From NCBI RefSeq assembly GCF_013409005.1, contig NZ_JACBZO010000001.1, positions 620,001 to 684,000 of the forward strand: a DNA stretch of 64,000 bases, given 5' to 3'. Shown one piece after another: positions 50,979 through 58,303 of this stretch. A model generated the notes under the pieces. The model searched no databases. It worked only from the letters and a program-made list of their open reading frames with translations, and was not told where the DNA came from. A program made the translations under genes and the position numbers. Within the stretch, counting starts at the first letter, position 1. Every line of letters begins with the position of its first letter. This DNA comes from Demequina lutea (GTDB taxonomy: Bacteria; Actinomycetota; Actinomycetes; Actinomycetales; Demequinaceae).

Positions 50979-52574
50979 ATGGCAGGCCGAGCGCTTCACC
51001 GTGGCGACGAGGTGGGTGGCTACATCGTCGAACGCCCTCTCGGGTCGGGCGGCTCGGGACAGGTGTACCTCGTGCGCAATGCGGAGGGCGCCGCCGTCGC
51101 GCTCAAGCGCGTTGACGCCCAACACGACGAGGTGGCGGCGGAGCGGTTGCGGCGCGAAGTGAGGGCCCTCATGGCGGTGCGCCACCCGGCCGTGCCCCGC
51201 GTCCTTGACGCCGAGCTTGAGGACGATGACACGTTCGTCGTCTTCGAATTCATCGAAGGCGAATGCCTCGCCGACGAGGTCGCCGCTCGGGGTCCCCTTG
51301 AGGGTGAGGACCTTGCCTACTGCGCCGAGCGAATCGCAGGCGCGCTCGAGGCCGCGCACGCGGCGGGCCTTGTGCACCGAGACGTCACCCCTTCGAACGT
51401 CATGATGTCGCCAGCGGGCGCGGTCCTCATCGACTTTGGGCTCTCGCATCGCGCAGATGACTCGCGTTTGACCAGGGAGGGCCTCGTCAGCGGCACCGCC
51501 GGTTACGTCGCCCCCGAAGTAATCGACGGCGCGGAGCCGGGGGCCGACGCCGACAGGTGGGCGTGGGCCGCGACGATGGCGTTCGCCATGACGGGCAAGG
51601 CGCCATACGGCACGGGGAACAGCGCGATCCGCAAGACTTTGCAGGGCAAATGGTCGGTGCCCGATCTTCCTGGAGCCGAGGTGCTGGCGGCGGCTCTCGA
51701 CCGCAAGGTTGAGGAACGGCCGGGAATGCGGGACATCGTGGCGGCGATGCGCGGCGCGACAGCGATCCTGCCGGTCGAGGCTTTGGCCGCCACCGCCGTG
51801 ATGGAAACCTCCTCCGACGGCACGGAGGTGCTCGCTGTCAATGACCCCGAGCTCAATGACGGCGAGTTCTCGGACGGCGACGACTTCGAAGACGGCTGGC
51901 GAACCGTCGACTTTGACGGCCACGTTCTCAACGACATGGTGTTACCTGGGCGCGAGACCCTCGAGGGCGATCTGGAACTCGCGATGAGGCGGCCCGTCCT
52001 CGTGGCGGCGTGGGCCACTGCGGTCGCCGCGAGTGCCGCGGTGGCACCGTTTGCGGGCGCCGCAGTCGTCATCATCGCCGCGCTCGTCGCGCGCACCGTT
52101 TTTCGCCGCGGCGAGGCCCTGCGCATTGCTCGTGCCAGGCGCGGTGAGCGCCGGCGCGATTCCGTCCTCCACACTCTTGGCGTCCCCTGGCATCTGATCA
52201 GGGCGGCCGCGGAACTGTTGCCCTCGCTGATCGTCGCCGCGCTCATCGGGACGGCGGTGGGAGCGCTCGGTTGGTATTTGGTGTCGATCGGGGCCGTCGC
52301 GACGAGTACCCCCGACGGTCAGGGGTGGGGTCATGCGATCGCCATCGCGGTGGGGCTTCTCGCCTTCGAGGGCGCCTTGTGGTGGGGACTGTGGTCGTGG
52401 ACGACCAGGGAGGGTTCGTACCGAGTCGCGGAGTCGCTTGCTCCCACCAACGGCGTGAGCGGCGCGTGGATCGTCGTGGCGCTCATCATCTTTGGTAGCG
52501 CTTCCCTTGCCGTCTATGTGGGAGCAGATCCGTGGTGGTGGCCGCTTCCCGCGATGCCGCAAAGCGGGGGCTAG
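50979..52574 (+). CDS. Membrane Ser/Thr protein kinase
   Basis: This 531-residue protein has an N-terminal Hanks-type kinase domain (residues about 14-265): glycine loop LGSGGSGQVY, Lys43 in VALKR, HRDVTPSN catalytic loop, DFG in LIDFGLSH, and the activation-segment GTAGYVAPE. An acidic spacer (PELNDGEFSDGDDFEDGW) and about five hydrophobic segments (from VLVAAWATAVAASAAVAPFAG) follow. There is no PASTA region, which distinguishes it from PknB. The target is unknown. The ATG at 50979 is chosen for its position at the kinase domain. Confidence 0.87.
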   Translation: MAGRALHRGDEVGGYIVERPLGSGGSGQVYLVRNAEGAAVALKRVDAQHDEVAAERLRREVRALMAVRHPAVPRVLDAELEDDDTFVVFEFIEGECLADEVAARGPLEGEDLAYCAERIAGALEAAHAAGLVHRDVTPSNVMMSPAGAVLIDFGLSHRADDSRLTREGLVSGTAGYVAPEVIDGAEPGADADRWAWAATMAFAMTGKAPYGTGNSAIRKTLQGKWSVPDLPGAEVLAAALDRKVEERPGMRDIVAAMRGATAILPVEALAATAVMETSSDGTEVLAVNDPELNDGEFSDGDDFEDGWRTVDFDGHVLNDMVLPGRETLEGDLELAMRRPVLVAAWATAVAASAAVAPFAGAAVVIIAALVARTVFRRGEALRIARARRGERRRDSVLHTLGVPWHLIRAAAELLPSLIVAALIGTAVGALGWYLVSIGAVATSTPDGQGWGHAIAIAVGLLAFEGALWWGLWSWTTREGSYRVAESLAPTNGVSGAWIVVALIIFGSASLAVYVGADPWWWPLPAMPQSGG

Positions 52575-52648
52575 CAGGGGCTCGGTCCCCGCTGCGTGGA
52601 ACCGTCCGCGCCTACAATGCGTTGAGTCCACGAGCGAGGGAGACGGCG

Positions 52649-53185
52649 ATGTCAAGCACTGACGCCACTGACGGGGTGGCAACCTCACGAGGCTTTGGCG
52701 CGCGGTGGCAAATCCTCCAGCCGTGGTTGAGTCTGGCGGTGCGGCTCGCGATGGGAATCATCATGATTGCGGCCGCGATCCCCAAGATGATCAACATCGA
52801 CCAGTCGGTGCGCGCTGTCCGCGCCTATCGGCTGCTACCCGAGGCCGTCGTTCCCCTCGTTGGCACAGCCCTTCCGTACCTTGAACTCGTCTTCGGACTC
52901 ATCCTCCTTGTGGGAGTATTCGTCCGTTGGTCAGCGATTGTTTGGCTGGTCCTCATGGCGGCGTTCGTGTTCGGAGTCGCGTGGGCCTGGGCGAAGGGTT
53001 ACAGCATCGACTGCGGCTGTTTTGGCGGCGGCGGTGATGTGGCTGTGGGCACAACCAACTATCCGGAGCATATGCTCGAGCGTGCAGGATTTGTGGCCTT
53101 GGGTGTCTTCCTGCTTGTCTTTCCCCGTACGCACGCGTCTCTCGACGCGTGGATGAAGGGTGAACCCCTCTTTTCCCGTCCCTGA
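52649..53185 (+). CDS. MauE/DoxX-family membrane protein
   Basis: This 178-residue protein has four membrane helices (LSLAVRLAMGIIMIAAAIPK first) and a conserved CxC in YSIDCGCFGGG, as in MauE proteins, which support disulfide formation in exported enzymes. Two DsbA-like genes follow 21 bp and then 50 bp later, so the three form a probable envelope thiol-oxidation operon. MauE may re-oxidise the DsbA-like proteins, an inference from gene order. Confidence 0.82.
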   Translation: MSSTDATDGVATSRGFGARWQILQPWLSLAVRLAMGIIMIAAAIPKMINIDQSVRAVRAYRLLPEAVVPLVGTALPYLELVFGLILLVGVFVRWSAIVWLVLMAAFVFGVAWAWAKGYSIDCGCFGGGGDVAVGTTNYPEHMLERAGFVALGVFLLVFPRTHASLDAWMKGEPLFSRP

Positions 53186-53206
53186 TGAGCGCCAAGGAGT
53201 CGTCAC

Positions 53207-54034
53207 ATGGCTAGCAAGACCCCGCAGTCCGGCAACACACCGCAGTCCGACAAGGTGGCCGTGGCCAAGAAGAAGGCCCAGTCCCAGGTCCACGCCCAAC
53301 AGCGTCGCGCGCTCGTCGTGTGGATCGTCATCGGCGTGGTCGTGGTGGGTCTGTTTGCCGCCCTGATCGCATACATCGTGCGTCAAGGCAACGTGTCCAG
53401 CGTCGCCACGACTCCTGGTCAATTGAATCCCGCGATCGCGACCACCAATGGCGGCTTTGGCGTGGGTGCGTCGGGCGTTGTAGGTGGCAAGGACCTCAGC
53501 ACCTCGCACGTGCGACTCGACATCTACTTCGACTACATGTGCCCCATTTGTGGCGAGTTTGAGCAGTACCGTGGCGCCGAGGTCGACGCGCTCCGTAAGG
53601 CTGGCACGGCAGACGTGTACTACCACCCGATTTCGATCCTCGACGGCTCGTCCTCAGGCACCCAGTACTCGACCCGTGCGGCATCCGCAGGCGCGTTAAT
53701 CGCTCAGGACGCGCCCGACAAGTTCTTGGCATTCACCACGGCGATGTTTGTCAACCAGCCCAAGGAGAACTCCACGGGACTCACCGAGGCGCAGATTCAG
53801 GCGATCGCCACCGCCGCGGGCGTGCCCGCTGACGTGGTCGCCAAGATCCCCGCTCTCGCGTACACCTCATGGGTCCGCAGCGCGACGGAGAAGGCAAGCG
53901 TCGACGGTGTGGCGGGAACCCCGACCCTGGCGCTCAACGGCGTCATTCAGGACCCAAGCAAGAACAAGGACGACATCAACTGGAGCGTCGCCGGCTCAAT
54001 CACGACGGCCATCAACAAGGCGGCGGGCAAGTAG
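53207..54034 (+). CDS. DsbA-like membrane-anchored thioredoxin-fold protein (1)
   Basis: This 275-residue protein has a Lys-rich cytoplasmic N-terminus, one anchor (WIVIGVVVVGLFAALIAYIV, about 39-58) and an exported DSBA domain with active site CPIC (Cys112, Cys115) in DYMCPICGEF and the cis-Pro loop GTPTLALNG. It probably oxidises or isomerises disulfides in exported proteins. It is paralogous to the next gene. Confidence 0.88.
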   Translation: MASKTPQSGNTPQSDKVAVAKKKAQSQVHAQQRRALVVWIVIGVVVVGLFAALIAYIVRQGNVSSVATTPGQLNPAIATTNGGFGVGASGVVGGKDLSTSHVRLDIYFDYMCPICGEFEQYRGAEVDALRKAGTADVYYHPISILDGSSSGTQYSTRAASAGALIAQDAPDKFLAFTTAMFVNQPKENSTGLTEAQIQAIATAAGVPADVVAKIPALAYTSWVRSATEKASVDGVAGTPTLALNGVIQDPSKNKDDINWSVAGSITTAINKAAGK

Positions 54035-54084
54035 TGGCGCGCAGCGACTAGCTGGCCCCAAAGGGCCTGGCGAGGGGGGAGACC

Positions 54085-54885
54085 ATGAACGACAAGACGG
54101 CCGCGAACGCCGCGGCAACTCTGGCCAAGAGGCAGGCCCAAGCCCAGGTCGACGCCCAAAAGCGACGGGCCGCCGTCATCTGGATCGTCGTTGGCGTGAT
54201 CGTGGTGGGGCTCATCGGCACGCTCGTGGCGTTCATCGTGCGTCAGGGCGCGGTCGCCGACGTCTCAGTTGCGGGACCCTCCGGCGCGCCCGTCGTGAGC
54301 AATACTGACGGCTTTGGCGTGGGAAGCAGCGGGGTCGTGGGCAAGGACCTCGATCCGAGCCGTGTGAGGCTCGATGTCTACTTCGACTTCATTTGCCCGT
54401 ACTGCGCGCTCTTCGAAAAGACTCAAGCGGCGACCCTCGACGACCTCCGGTCCCAGGGCATCGTCGATGTGTACTACCACCCGCTCGCGTACCTCGACGA
54501 TGCATCGTCTGGCACCAAGTATTCGACGCGAGCGGCATCGGCCGCGGCGCTCGTCGCCCAGGAATCCCCGGAGTCGTTCGTTGCCTTCCTGCAGCAACTC
54601 ATGGAGCATCAGCCCGCGGAGGGCTCGACGGGTCTTCCCGACCAGCAAATCCAGTCGTTGGCATCCGCCGCGGGGGTGCCCGATGCGATCGTGGCCAAGA
54701 TTCCTGACCAGGGCTACGCCGCGTGGGTGCGCAGTTCGACCGAGGCGGCAAACAAGGATGGCGTGATGTACACGCCTTCCTTGGGATTCAGCGGCGTCAT
54801 CCAAGACCCGACGGACCCCGCGAGCGTTCAGTGGAGCCAAGAGGGGGCGCTCCGCCAAGCCATCATGGAGCGCGCCGCTGGCTAA
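54085..54885 (+). CDS. DsbA-like membrane-anchored thioredoxin-fold protein (2)
   Basis: This 266-residue paralogue has an anchor at about 31-52 and active site CPYC (Cys104, Cys107) in DFICPYCALF. The cis-Pro loop is YTPSLGFSG. It is about as long as the preceding protein, with the same N-terminal Lys/Ala/Gln helix, so the pair arose by tandem duplication. The differing active-site dipeptide (PY versus PI) implies different redox potentials. Confidence 0.88.
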   Translation: MNDKTAANAAATLAKRQAQAQVDAQKRRAAVIWIVVGVIVVGLIGTLVAFIVRQGAVADVSVAGPSGAPVVSNTDGFGVGSSGVVGKDLDPSRVRLDVYFDFICPYCALFEKTQAATLDDLRSQGIVDVYYHPLAYLDDASSGTKYSTRAASAAALVAQESPESFVAFLQQLMEHQPAEGSTGLPDQQIQSLASAAGVPDAIVAKIPDQGYAAWVRSSTEAANKDGVMYTPSLGFSGVIQDPTDPASVQWSQEGALRQAIMERAAG

Positions 54886-55261
54886 CTGCCAGCAGGCCCG
54901 ACATCGGCGCTCCACATGACTGGGTGGACACCATGACCGTCCGCAGGCGCATCGCCGGAATAGCGCAAACGGTCAAGGAGTACGACATGCAGTTGTCCGC
55001 TCAACTGCCACTGTCCGCCTGGGAGCCCGAGCCCGGCTACGAGGCGATCTCGGAACTGATCGACAGCGGCGTTGCCGTACGAGACGATGGGGCGATTGGT
55101 GGCAAAGTTGATCCTGACGGGAGCAACGGAACCCCAGGAACACCTGATCGCGATGCCGATCATGTACCGCGGATCAGTCCGCTAGTCCGCCGAGTGCCGT
55201 GGCTCACAGTCACGTGTGACATCCCGTACACGGGTATCCTTGTGCGGGCCCTCAGGGCTCT

Positions 55262-55334
55262 GCTGGCATGGCGCAATTGGTAGCGCACCCGACTTGTAAT
55301 CGGGCGGTTGCGGGTTCAAGTCCCGCTGCCAGCT
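55262..55334 (+). tRNA. tRNA-Thr (UGU anticodon)
   Basis: The 73-nt cloverleaf has acceptor GCTGGCA/TGCCAGC and discriminator T. The D arm contains AATTGGTAG, the anticodon stem CCCGA/TCGGG has loop CTTGTAA (anticodon TGT), and the T arm is GCGGGTTCAAGTCCCGC. CCA is not encoded. Confidence 0.95.
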
Positions 55335-55518
55335 CTCTCACACGCGGGAGTGATGTTTGTCACAGGGACGTGCTTGCGCGTCATTGTTGGGGCATTTGTC
55401 ACTCTCAAGCATCGGAATAGTTCTGTCGATCACTTCGCCAAGGCTGTTCAGACCCCAGTTGTGGTGCCACCCGGAAGGGGGTGGTGCTTGAACTCATACC
55501 GAAGGGAAAGCCAAGATC

Positions 55519-55947
55519 ATGGCTAAGAAGAAGAATTCGCGCAAGGTGCTCGCTGTTGCGCTCGGCATCATGGGCATTGCCGGACTCAGCGTCGCGTCCG
55601 CATCGTCGTTGCCCGTAACTGCCGGTAACGAGGTTGCAATCGGTGTTGACACGTTCGCACCGTGTGACAGCGATGGCGTCAAGGTCGACTACACATATGC
55701 CAAGGACACCGCGACCATCCCAGTCACCTCGGGCTACATAATTTCGAAGGTGACGGTGTCCGGCATCAGCACGAATTGCGATGGGAAGGACATCAGGCTG
55801 ACTCTCGCCGACAGCACAGATGCCCCAATCTTCACCACGGGCCCCACGCAGATCGGCGCCAGCGCCACCACGTTCGTCTACGACGCGACGTCCGACCTAA
55901 TTGACATCTCGAAGGACCTCGGCAAGGTGACCGTCATCATCGGCTAA
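55519..55947 (+). CDS. Small exported protein, probable substrate of the adjacent SipW-like peptidase
   Basis: This 142-residue protein has the signal KKKNSRKVLAVALGIMG continuing to SVASAS, the K/R-rich plus GIAGL form seen in SipW-dependent (TasA/camelysin) precursors. One beta-rich domain with two Cys (FAPCDSDG, STNCDGKD) follows. The mature N-terminus (SLPVTAGNEVAIGVDTFAPC) resembles the segment following the third membrane helix of the next protein. The ATG is preceded by GAAGGGAAAG. It probably forms a surface or fibre subunit; that is inferred from the family resemblance. Confidence 0.7.
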   Translation: MAKKKNSRKVLAVALGIMGIAGLSVASASSLPVTAGNEVAIGVDTFAPCDSDGVKVDYTYAKDTATIPVTSGYIISKVTVSGISTNCDGKDIRLTLADSTDAPIFTTGPTQIGASATTFVYDATSDLIDISKDLGKVTVIIG

Positions 55948-55983
55948 GTGCCGCTGAGCGACGAAGCATACTGACCGGATCAC

Positions 55984-57588
55984 GTGGAGATTCGACGATT
56001 CATAGATACCGGCGAGTGGACCACTCGCCGGTATCTGTCGTTGCTTGGAAGCGTCCTGATCTGGGCCATCGTTGCGATTGACGGGTGGTACATGTGGCCC
56101 ACGCAGTTGGGCGGAGACACCTCCTTCGTCGTGGTCTCAGGGCATTCGATGGAACCCACCTATTTCACCGGCGACCTTGTGATCGCCCGCAAGATGACGC
56201 CGAGCGTCGGTGACGTGATCGTCTACGCGCCGGCAAGCCTCGGCGGTTCGCAAATTGTTCACCGCATCATCGGAGGCAATGCCACCGACGGCTGGAAGAT
56301 GCAGGGCGACAACAACAACTTTGTTGACCCGTTCACCCCCAAGGGGAGCGAGGTCAAGGGCGTGGTGCTGGTGCACTACGCCAAATTCGGGCGGGTCACC
56401 ATCCTCCTGCTAAACCCCATGGTGTGGGCGTTTGTTCTGCTTGCGGCCATGGTCCTGTTGCTCTGGTTCACGGGTGACGACTGTGAAGAGCGACATGACG
56501 ACGACGAGAACAAAGGCAATGGCAAGGGCGAGGGCGAAGGCGACCCGGAACGGGAAGCCGAAGAAGAGCTTGACCTGATAGACCGCGTGGTCGAAGGCAC
56601 CGAGGCCGCCGTCGCGCGCATGGTCGCCTCCGGCGTCGAAGCGGGGGCCGCGGCGCTCTCCGTGCTGACGCGTCCCTCTCCCGCCCCCCGCCACGCCGCG
56701 ACGGCGCCGCGCCACAGAGCGCCCGCGTTGCTCCGCGGTTCCGCGATTGTCGCCTTGTTGGGCCTGCTGACGATTTATGGGTCGTCGACCGCATCCGCGT
56801 CACAACTGATCGTGAAAACCGGCGACCAGGTCTCGGTCATGACTGTCGAGAAGTGCGTGACTCACACCCTCACCGCAACCACGGCGACGCAAACCACCGG
56901 AAACCACTATGCCGCTGTTGAGATCGGCAACATCGATCCGGCATGCCAGGACCTGTCGATTACCGTGAACTTGTATCAGGCCAACGGCACGCCCATAACA
57001 ACCGGATCCGGCACCGTCACGGGCACGTCAACCAAGGTGCCGGTCGTGGGCACCTATCAGCGGCAAAAGGTTGGCACAGTGATTGTCAAGATCAATGGCT
57101 GGCTGTTCGTGGCCGCGTGGGGCGAAGCCTCGACGACGCCGCCCTTCCCGTCCGTGGGCAACTGTGATGGCGTGCTTATCTCTACTGGCCAGTTGCTGAC
57201 GGGCAACAAGTGCGCCCTGACTTGGAACAGCAGTGTGGGTACGGCGGGGACGAGTTCGGGACGGATCAACGCGATCGGTGTCTTCGTGAAAACGGAGTTC
57301 GCTGACTATGACTACACGACCCAGGGCGCTACCACGTGGCGGTTCACCCTGGATCTGACCGGACTCCCCAACTTGAACTGGATTGGGGGCCTCAGTAGTG
57401 GCTACTACATCTACTCCCACACGTCCGGCAACGACAACATCGTCCTAGCTCCGGGGGAGACGTGTCTCAACCCCGCCTCTGTGACGTTCCAAGAAGCCAA
57501 TCCAAGTAGCGATGGAACCTCCTCGTTCGTCCTGTCCACCACATACCTACCCGGTTGGGATCAGTGGCTCATCTGTCCCACGTCGTAG
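55984..57588 (+). CDS. SipW-type signal peptidase fused to an exported substrate-like domain
   Basis: This 534-residue protein has an S26 signal peptidase at residues 1-165, with TM1 about 20-38, catalytic Ser55 in SGHSMEP, and His93 in QIVHRII in place of the Lys of classical LepB, the ER/SipW type. TM2 is about 138-162. A charged linker (about 165-200) and Pro/Ala region follow. A second signal-like hydrophobic stretch (ALLRGSAIVALLGLLTIYG, about 249-266, ending SSTASAS) leads into a roughly 265-residue exported beta domain starting QLIVKTGDQVSVMTVEKC, which mirrors the neighbouring small exported protein. The GTG start is 36 bp after that gene. Normal SipW proteins end near residue 190. 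Confidence 0.82.
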   Translation: MEIRRFIDTGEWTTRRYLSLLGSVLIWAIVAIDGWYMWPTQLGGDTSFVVVSGHSMEPTYFTGDLVIARKMTPSVGDVIVYAPASLGGSQIVHRIIGGNATDGWKMQGDNNNFVDPFTPKGSEVKGVVLVHYAKFGRVTILLLNPMVWAFVLLAAMVLLLWFTGDDCEERHDDDENKGNGKGEGEGDPEREAEEELDLIDRVVEGTEAAVARMVASGVEAGAAALSVLTRPSPAPRHAATAPRHRAPALLRGSAIVALLGLLTIYGSSTASASQLIVKTGDQVSVMTVEKCVTHTLTATTATQTTGNHYAAVEIGNIDPACQDLSITVNLYQANGTPITTGSGTVTGTSTKVPVVGTYQRQKVGTVIVKINGWLFVAAWGEASTTPPFPSVGNCDGVLISTGQLLTGNKCALTWNSSVGTAGTSSGRINAIGVFVKTEFADYDYTTQGATTWRFTLDLTGLPNLNWIGGLSSGYYIYSHTSGNDNIVLAPGETCLNPASVTFQEANPSSDGTSSFVLSTTYLPGWDQWLICPTS

Positions 57589-57634
57589 AGAACCGCGAGC
57601 CGTCACGAGCCGGGTGCGGGCGGCGGAGGCTGGG

Positions 57635-58303
57635 TTAGGCGTTTGCCCACCGGATGGCGGCGACACCCTGCTGTTCGAGCAACGCGTTCGCACGTGAAAA
57701 CGGCCTGGACCCAAAGAACCCCCGCGAGGCGCTGAGCGGGCTCGGATGGGCCGACTCGATACGAGGCACGTCGCCGAGCATCGGCGCCAGATTCTGCGCG
57801 TCGCGGCCCCACAGGATCGCGACGAGCGGCCCTCCGCGTGCCACCAACGTGCGGATCGCGTGCTCGGTGAACTCCTCCCATCCCTTGCCCCGATGGGAAC
57901 CTGGCGCGCCAGGAGCGACGGTGAGGCACCTGTTGAGCAGCATCACACCTTGATCGGCCCACGGCGTGAGGTCCCCGGTGATCAGCCGCTCGCCCGTGTC
58001 GGACTCGAGCTCGCGCGCGATGTTGGAAAGCGAGCGCGGCATCGGGCGGCCGGGAGAGACCGAAAACGAGAGTCCCATGGCGTCGCCAGGCGTGGGGTAG
58101 GGGTCCTGGCCGACGATCAGCACCCGTACGTCGGCCAGCGGGCGGGTGAACGAGTTGAGGATCGCGCGGGACTCGGGAAGGTACGTGCGCCCCTCCGCGA
58201 GCTCGGCTCTGAGAAAGCTCCCGAGCTCCGCCAGCGTCGGCGCCATCGGCTCGAGGGCCACGGCCCAGTCGGGGGCGACCTGTGATTTCCATGCCTCGGA
58301 CAT
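57635..58303 (-). CDS. ung: Uracil-DNA glycosylase, family 1
   Basis: This 222-residue enzyme has the catalytic water-activating Asp67 in VGQDPYP, the uracil-binding [10 protein letters not shown] and LLNRCLTV, and the C-terminal DNA-intercalation loop [14 protein letters not shown]. It removes uracil from DNA to start base-excision repair. All active-site motifs are intact. Confidence 0.94.

Follow-up and report, generated by a model that had tools for sequence, protein, structure and literature searches.

Why should a signal peptidase be made as one chain with a protein that looks like its own substrate? The question is raised by a locus of Demequina lutea, within a stretch of 64,000 nucleotides (assembly GCF_013409005.1, contig NZ_JACBZO010000001.1, positions 620,001 to 684,000 of the forward strand; hereafter the window), where the gene of a small secreted protein stands next to that of a fused peptidase. 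We suggest, with a probability of about one half, that the locus is a two-substrate surface-filament cassette whose dedicated endoplasmic reticulum (ER)-type signal peptidase is fused to one of the substrates. Both reading frames lie where an earlier note on this DNA, written from the letters alone, had placed them. The parts needed for the argument, with the basis of each in brackets, are:

55519–55947, + strand: small secreted protein, 142 residues, ATG start, signal peptide at about residues 1–29, then a mature immunoglobulin (Ig)-like domain (open reading frame, family)

55606–55641, + strand: mature residues +1 to +12 of the small protein (SLPVTAGNEVAI), predicted docking strand (model confidence of 56–59, co-variation)

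55984–57588, + strand: fused protein, 534 residues, GTG start (open reading frame list, profile matches)

55984–56478, + strand: ER/archaeal-type signal peptidase domain, residues 1–165, transmembrane-like segments at 18–34 and 146–162 (TIGR02228, SEC11A/C profile, hydropathy)

56146–56148, + strand: Ser55 codon (invariant in a 10-sequence alignment, aligned with the SEC11 SMEP motif)

56260–56262, + strand: His93 codon (invariant in the same alignment, aligned with the SEC11 VHR motif)

56326–56328, + strand: Asp115 codon, third catalytic residue by alignment (invariant in the same alignment, SEC11A/C alignment)

56470–56724, + strand: acidic linker, residues 163–247, predicted cytoplasmic (21 D/E and 10 K/R in 85 residues)

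56725–56802, + strand: third hydrophobic helix, residues 248–273, resembling an internal signal peptide and ending STASAS (hydropathy, alignment)

56803–57123, + strand: exported domain A, residues 274–380, small-protein homologue with a predicted complete Ig-like fold (profiles, AlphaFold 2)

57124–57585, + strand: exported domain B, residues 381–534, variable, with four conserved Cys, weakly CBM2-like (alignments, profile)

The frame at 55984–57588 is open without an internal stop and begins 36 bases after that of the small protein. By profile and alignment, its N-terminal half is an ER/archaeal-type signal peptidase, with predicted activity on signal peptides. It scores 57.1 bits against NCBIfam TIGR02228 (sigpep_I_arch, cut-off 51.85) and 25.9 bits against Peptidase_S24 (cut-off 23.3), and a profile of ten peptidase relatives matches human SEC11C and SEC11A at E 5.5e-8 to 7.9e-7. 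Ser55, His93 and Asp115 (with His, not Lys, as the base) all align with SEC11A/C motifs, the last of them with the Asp that we take to be the third residue of the SEC11A catalytic triad. This agrees with the ER-type peptidase and the Ser55/His93 pair read by the earlier note, whose label "SipW-type" is loose: NF046067, the SipW model of Bacillus, gives the fused protein 17 bits where the cut-off is 190. Assignment to the SipW or TasA/camelysin families, also raised there, is not supported: TasA, camelysin and SipW-cognate models are absent from the Pfam and NCBIfam matches of both window proteins and from those listed for the other alignment members. The small window protein matches nothing in these two collections, and the small and large proteins at large have no convincing family in either. 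The helices flanking the catalytic part are again as in TIGR02228 and SEC11 proteins, unlike which the Demequina fusion adds a linker, a third helix and two exported domains.

Within the 20 linker residues before the third helix, the window protein has 4 K/R and no D/E; across seven fusions introduced below the counts are 3–5 K/R, with 0 or 1 D/E in six and 3 in the seventh (G023). Such a basic stretch is as expected for a signal peptide inserting with its N-terminal side inside. Hydropathy peaks for three helices are present in 7/7 fusions, along with a few weaker peaks within folded domains.

Downstream of STASAS follow 261 exported residues in two domains. Where the earlier note saw one exported beta domain, the resemblance to the small protein stands, and it is confined to the first of the two. 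BLASTP of the small against the fused protein finds the junction region alone (13/27 identities, E 7e-4 for the single pair), in keeping with the second signal-like helix and small-protein-like junction noted earlier. A hidden Markov model built from 10 small proteins picks out residues 256–352 of the fused protein (E 5.3e-11). In a profile-profile comparison by hhalign, with 24 small and 17 large proteins, the mature small protein pairs with the first 99 exported residues (97.2%, E 4.5e-11 for the single pair). Domain A is thus almost certainly a true homologue of the neighbouring small protein, present as its fused partner. The aligned small proteins have two invariant Cys, as does domain A of the large proteins; domain B has four that are conserved or nearly so. 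The domain B profile drew four PDB matches, three to xylan-binding modules of xylanase D (E 0.018, 0.12 and 0.36) and one to an antibody chain (0.035), and 0/24 of its members matched a CBM family in Pfam. This domain has apparently been exchanged between lineages, as G023 and G204 are 62% identical in A and 19% in B, while G013 and the split G083 share 21% in A and 46% in B. Domain B can be unlike among close Demequina that keep domain A and akin to that of distant ones, as for a variable tip. Large proteins whose second part is long and of another kind (L110, L111, L112, L117; L130, L137, L138, L140) were left out of the alignments, and L106 out of the large-protein set.

We compared 44 genomes of the genus, 396 of the order and 394 of the class. 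A single-protein scan of genome contigs returned 106 pattern matches and no relative; a profile scan then gave 38 loci. The small protein is present in 18/44 Demequina genomes. Peptidase and large protein are fused in one frame in seven (G000, G013, G003, G007, G023, G204, G015) and encoded by split genes in nine (G020, G014, G009, G010, G067, G083, G286, G296, G347); G403, with a contig end inside the peptidase, stands outside these counts, and L104 (G401, broken frames) outside the architecture, tree and hairpin counts. One frame in seven Demequina genomes, the window's included, rules out the assembly error that the earlier note had allowed for, or a frameshift, as the source of the fusion. 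We also rejected an internal start from which the C-terminal half would be translated separately, the candidates not being conserved in place and having at most 4/6 Shine-Dalgarno matches.

The split loci suggest how the two forms are related. Peptidase and large genes overlap by 4 bases in six of them (L039, L040, L097, L098, L100, L102), so that a small frame change at the stop could fuse the genes, and the large proteins of four aligned split loci carry a signal peptide of their own, which ends in a comparable AxA motif. The fused proteins retain the junction, ASA-S/A-x-L, in 7/7 cases and across two separate groups, between which the linker diverges in both length and sequence. These groups, {G015, G023, G204} and {G007, G000, G013, G003}, appear in the peptidase tree with the split G009 and G020 beside them; parsimony on this tree needs at least two changes, and forcing the seven fused genomes plus G403 into one clade costs 24.7 log units, with a modest p of 0.039 in the approximately unbiased test.

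The large-protein profile matches 27/396 order genomes. The 14 outside Demequina all have the small protein and the peptidase, and 12/14 a separate large protein; the fusion, for which the earlier note had proposed a search in relatives, was found in the seven Demequina genomes and in none of these 14. Two loci of the Cellulomonas family (L118, L119) have the small protein and peptidase with no large protein by profile, and lack an RNA hairpin described below too. Judged by these comparisons, the trio of small protein, peptidase and large protein is an old cassette common to Demequina and Cellulomonadaceae. Among class genomes the profile matches 12/394, own included, mostly over domain A alone. 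Ten loci were fetched for the 11 non-own matches (G427 was left out); the peptidase is found by profile in the same stretch in 9/10, and L212 matches none of the three cassette profiles. Similar small proteins thus lie near related peptidases in several sampled groups of Actinomycetes, despite having no convincing Pfam or NCBIfam family.

One locus outside the order, L211 (G708), has a fusion of its own:

L211:4328–5956, − strand: peptidase–CBM2-like fusion, start codon inferred

Here the peptidase is followed by an Arg-rich linker, a helix, the junction GTAA-TLGGLRPDSL and a stretch resembling CBM2, which Pfam CBM_2 matches at E 9e-5 with 23.2 bits, slightly short of the cut-off of 24. The neighbouring small protein starts SSAA-TLGGLGGPDL, echoing that junction. 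From its kinship and its different C-terminal part, we infer that this fusion arose independently of those in Demequina.

The mature starts of the two secreted proteins change together. We scored mature positions +1 to +12 in same-genome against shuffled pairs at 28 loci with both proteins, using only the small protein next to the peptidase at loci with several (L108–L112). The score averages 6.14 when shuffled and 12.29 within genomes, the latter value being reached by 0/10,000 and 0/5000 shuffles, and the signal holds in the fused (n=7, p 0.007), split Demequina (n=9, p 0.0006) and other loci (n=12, p 0.011). Over the same 28 loci it is absent at −20 to −9 (p 0.53) and at +13 to +24 (p 0.88), and a window slid along the domain gives z of 4.4 and 3.2 at its first two steps and −2.0 to 2.4 elsewhere. 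The residue before the presumed cut is also matched between small and large protein (SS 9, SA 4, AS 1, AA 14; Fisher p 0.001, kin counted apart). Relatedness among the small proteins, or among the large ones, should not by itself match the two proteins of one genome. The co-variation suggests, on sequence grounds, one docking site fitting both N-termini and one peptidase cutting both; its occurrence in fused genomes too suggests that the docking strand is freed there as well. Gene conversion of whole gene starts was considered and rejected, since −20 to −9 show no co-variation, though −12 to −1 co-vary weakly.

The AlphaFold 2 model of the mature small protein (24 sequences) is a beta sandwich with a predicted local distance difference test score (pLDDT) of 85.8, in which residues 1–20 have a pLDDT of 56–59 and no strand. 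It matches FN3 chains such as 4lpu, 4lpv, 3b83 and 5e95 from near their first residue to 74–75, these chains being 92–99 long, and we hypothesize that the last strand of the fold, which looks to be missing, would be supplied from outside the subunit. The large-protein model places N-terminal strands at 2–6 and 9–13 and an extra strand at 100–106 (conserved GWxFxxxW) beyond the last one common with the small protein, and VH domains match it over residues ~20–107. The fold searches gave nothing at E ≤ 0.001 and the second comparisons no Z of 8 or more. As the matches are weak and FN3, glycosidase and antibody chains fill the lists, an Ig-like arrangement, itself a widespread one, is the only fold we claim from the models. 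TasA is not among the matches listed, which speaks neither for nor against a jellyroll fold.

The excerpts consulted of work on Bacillus describe TapA as having a complete Ig fold and first residues nearly equal to those of TasA, and as starting the filament (PMC10151520, PMC9674648), and TasA as being completed by a donor strand (PMC10151520, PMC9674648, PMC13082335). Our filament model is drawn by analogy with these partial accounts: the small protein would polymerise and the large one start or tip the filament. A cassette that is TapA/TasA-like without being homologous is what we favour by that analogy. As in tapA-sipW-tasA of B. subtilis and sipW-calY of B. cereus, an ER-type peptidase gene stands between or beside those of its substrates, and a major and a minor secreted partner have similar mature N-termini. 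In both Bacillus systems peptidase and substrate are separate proteins, whereas here they are fused; unlike TasA and camelysin, to which neither Demequina secreted protein shows sequence relation, the mature proteins start with Q/T/S-L-x-V instead of AF-DI and carry paired cysteines. Chaperone-usher and TasA donor-strand fibres likewise have what is tentatively predicted here, an Ig-like subunit one strand short with a free N-terminal extension; unlike in chaperone-usher systems, no usher or chaperone is seen at the locus, and our fold matches are weak and polymerisation is a proposal.

In the mechanism we favour, the small protein would be the abundant polymer subunit, docking the free ~12 residues of its mature N-terminus into the next subunit. 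The large protein, which is the C-terminal half of the fusion, would combine a self-complete Ig copy with a variable, perhaps sugar-binding, second domain and start or tip the filament. Inserted as a signal peptide, the fusion's third helix would keep the starter tethered to the peptidase until a cut after ASA/S, made in cis or on an adjacent copy, frees the large protein with its docking strand. A three-helix membrane peptidase would remain and trim the small protein. The parts of this scheme differ in strength. Sequence comparison demonstrates the fusion, the homology, the split orthologues, the recurrence, the conserved junction and the N-terminal co-variation. That the fusion is cut at the junction is probable, and that its own peptidase makes the cut is slightly favoured; cleavage in cis is doubtful, and a strand-exchange filament, with its docking, is a tentative proposal a little short of even odds. 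The protease-substrate pair occurs as one chain and as two within one genus, and this natural comparison makes self-processing, in cis or trans, and its effect on assembly testable. To our knowledge, the start of Gram-positive surface fibres at the membrane is known in few systems.

Several observations weigh against this scheme. In the seven fused genomes co-variation is not significant over +1 to +5 alone (p 0.14), and over +6 to +12 it gives p 0.046. Positions −12 to −1 carry a weaker signal (p 0.008 over all loci, no subset below p 0.11), alignment columns 60–64 co-vary weakly (z 2.4 and 2.1), the shuffles ignore kinship, and 12 residues are few. The C-domain tree, which is noisier, joins fused G007 with split G020 at 98/98 support, contradicting the peptidase tree, so that the trees do not tell fusion, fission and recombination fully apart. 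The best fold matches, with an Ig/FN3-like sandwich, have Z of 6.4 and 5.8 (all below 7), and the large-protein model, with a mean pLDDT of 68.7, is poor beyond domain A, domain B included. The AxA junction, finally, would suit a housekeeping-type peptidase too.

The rival that survives best, although unlikely, is a secreted adhesin or signalling pair in which small and large protein bind via their N-termini, to each other or to the same partner, and form no polymer. A domain B that is variable, apparently exchanged and weakly CBM2-like would be at home in such a pair. The apparently missing last strand fits a polymer better, and so do the two or more small proteins found near one peptidase in several loci (L108–L112 of the Cellulomonadaceae group; L207, L208, L210, L213 and L214 in other Actinomycetes).

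Improbable, in our judgement, is a permanent tether, by which the fusion stays uncut, the third helix anchors it, and the exported domains serve at the membrane to display the peptidase or to hold the base of the filament. The fusion by itself makes a three-helix membrane protein, and there is a precedent in the peptidase-DUF5305 fusions of Chloroflexi and some Actinobacteria, which look non-secreted and membrane-bound (topology by eye). They, too, join a related peptidase in one frame with another domain; DUF5305 is over the Pfam cut-off in L142, L143, L145 and L150 (Chloroflexi and one actinobacterial record), weaker in L148, L151, L153 and L154, and absent in L147. These proteins differ in their DUF5305 C-terminal part, the lack of an AxA junction by eye, and a further helix and tail, and the Demequina fusion has no match to DUF5305 (PF17231) up to E 5. 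A tether would leave it unexplained that ASA-S/A-x-L is kept in every fusion of two groups with different linkers. Nor would an uncut strand have much need for the co-variation of +1 to +12 with the small protein that the fused genomes show.

Equally improbable is that the housekeeping peptidase LepB cuts the junction and fusion merely fixes the ratio and place of peptidase and partner: a canonical S26 housekeeping-type peptidase is encoded elsewhere in the genome (134.6 bits) and the junction is an ordinary AxA, without the aromatic P2' that TasA has and that LepB handles badly according to the part of PMC10269814 consulted, yet a dedicated peptidase lies beside the substrates in the order loci and in 9/10 loci fetched outside the order, and the two substrates agree in the residue before the cut.

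The first peptidase codons of the cassette carry a further conserved element:

56005–56035, + strand: perfect 15+1+15 inverted repeat, RNA hairpin, peptidase codons 8–18 (z −5.6 against dinucleotide shuffles)

Synonymous-codon shuffles at 31 loci found 26 more stable than expected (z −2.6 to −7.1, at most 2/300 shuffles as low), namely 17/17 in Demequina and 9/14 elsewhere, the hairpin missing in L111, L112, L115, L118 and L119; control places in the same genes reach z −2.6 in 8/155 cases. In 16/31 loci the hairpin coincides with the most stable 50-base window of the 3.3 kb around it (a shorter stretch in L103), and the loop centre of the best strict stem lies 36 bases past the model start in 16/31. 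Stem sequences have turned over almost completely (median arm identity 36%), while each of 14 stem pairs shows 3–6 standard pair types over 25 loci (L044, L111, L112, L115, L118 and L119 are not in this table); the arms were chosen for pairing, which biases the percentage paired and affects pair types less. An Rfam search of 55300–56300 gave 5 matches up to E 1, all far below gathering scores. An intrinsic terminator was rejected as its identity, as none of three terminator-like sites in 55200–57800 lies at the hairpin. Our guess is that it either acts on the small-protein transcript, by protection or trimming, or lowers peptidase synthesis. With its nearly complete sequence turnover, it offers a second, independent lead on the tuning of subunit ratios in such operons.

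Taken further, the fusion could be a self-arming starter: one cut would both mature the enzyme and bare the initiator's strand, tying nucleation to the site of subunit trimming; the device would have arisen repeatedly, once with a carbohydrate-binding-like cargo, and the hairpin would set the surplus of subunits over starters. We offer this as speculation that is less likely than not.

The cassette has recurring borders:

55262–55335, + strand: tRNA-Thr (TGT), upstream border (ARAGORN)

57635–58303, − strand: uracil-DNA glycosylase (UDG), downstream border (BLASTP recurrence)

The product names of the flanks, UDG included, are presumed ones. In the window, the cassette is flanked by DsbA-like genes and, at the opposite end, by genes for DUF3263, LytR_C and GroEL. 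All 16 Demequina loci that were scanned contain one tRNA-Thr, which in L037 and L103 lies ~6 kb away from the small gene, and UDG, found in 42/44 genus genomes, is recurrently beside the cassette by BLASTP (~5 kb further away in L043 of G009). Among the 26 congeners without a cassette, 18 were examined and 17 show an empty site at the same place, with the tRNA-Thr ~24 to 670 bases from UDG. UDG and DUF3263 homologues lie 1 to 4 kb off in 11/11 Cellulomonas-family loci, and none were found in the fetched stretches of L107 and L115, from other families. Recurring flanks and empty sites in congeners speak for an old locus with losses; a recent mobile insertion was rejected as the cause of presence and absence, since the same flanks recur and loss fits better.

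Comparison with other genomes indicates that fusing this type of peptidase to a partner is a recurring move. What is new, on the same evidence, is that the partner is homologous to the substrate encoded next door and is joined through a retained signal-peptide junction; a literature search, with subscription journals thinly covered, found no title on a signal peptidase fused to its substrate. In a locus of another Actinomycetes group, where several small proteins adjoin, the peptidase is fused to an EAL domain of the cyclic-di-GMP type (E 9.3e-26):

L207:7306–8700, − strand: peptidase–EAL fusion (Pfam EAL match)

Directly upstream of the tRNA, at 52532–54885 of the window, stand what we presume to be a DoxX/MauE-like gene and two tandem DsbA-like genes. 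DsbA-like genes occur in 16/17 other Demequina stretches (~6 kb off in L037 and L103), and could possibly supply disulfides to nearby secreted proteins with paired cysteines.

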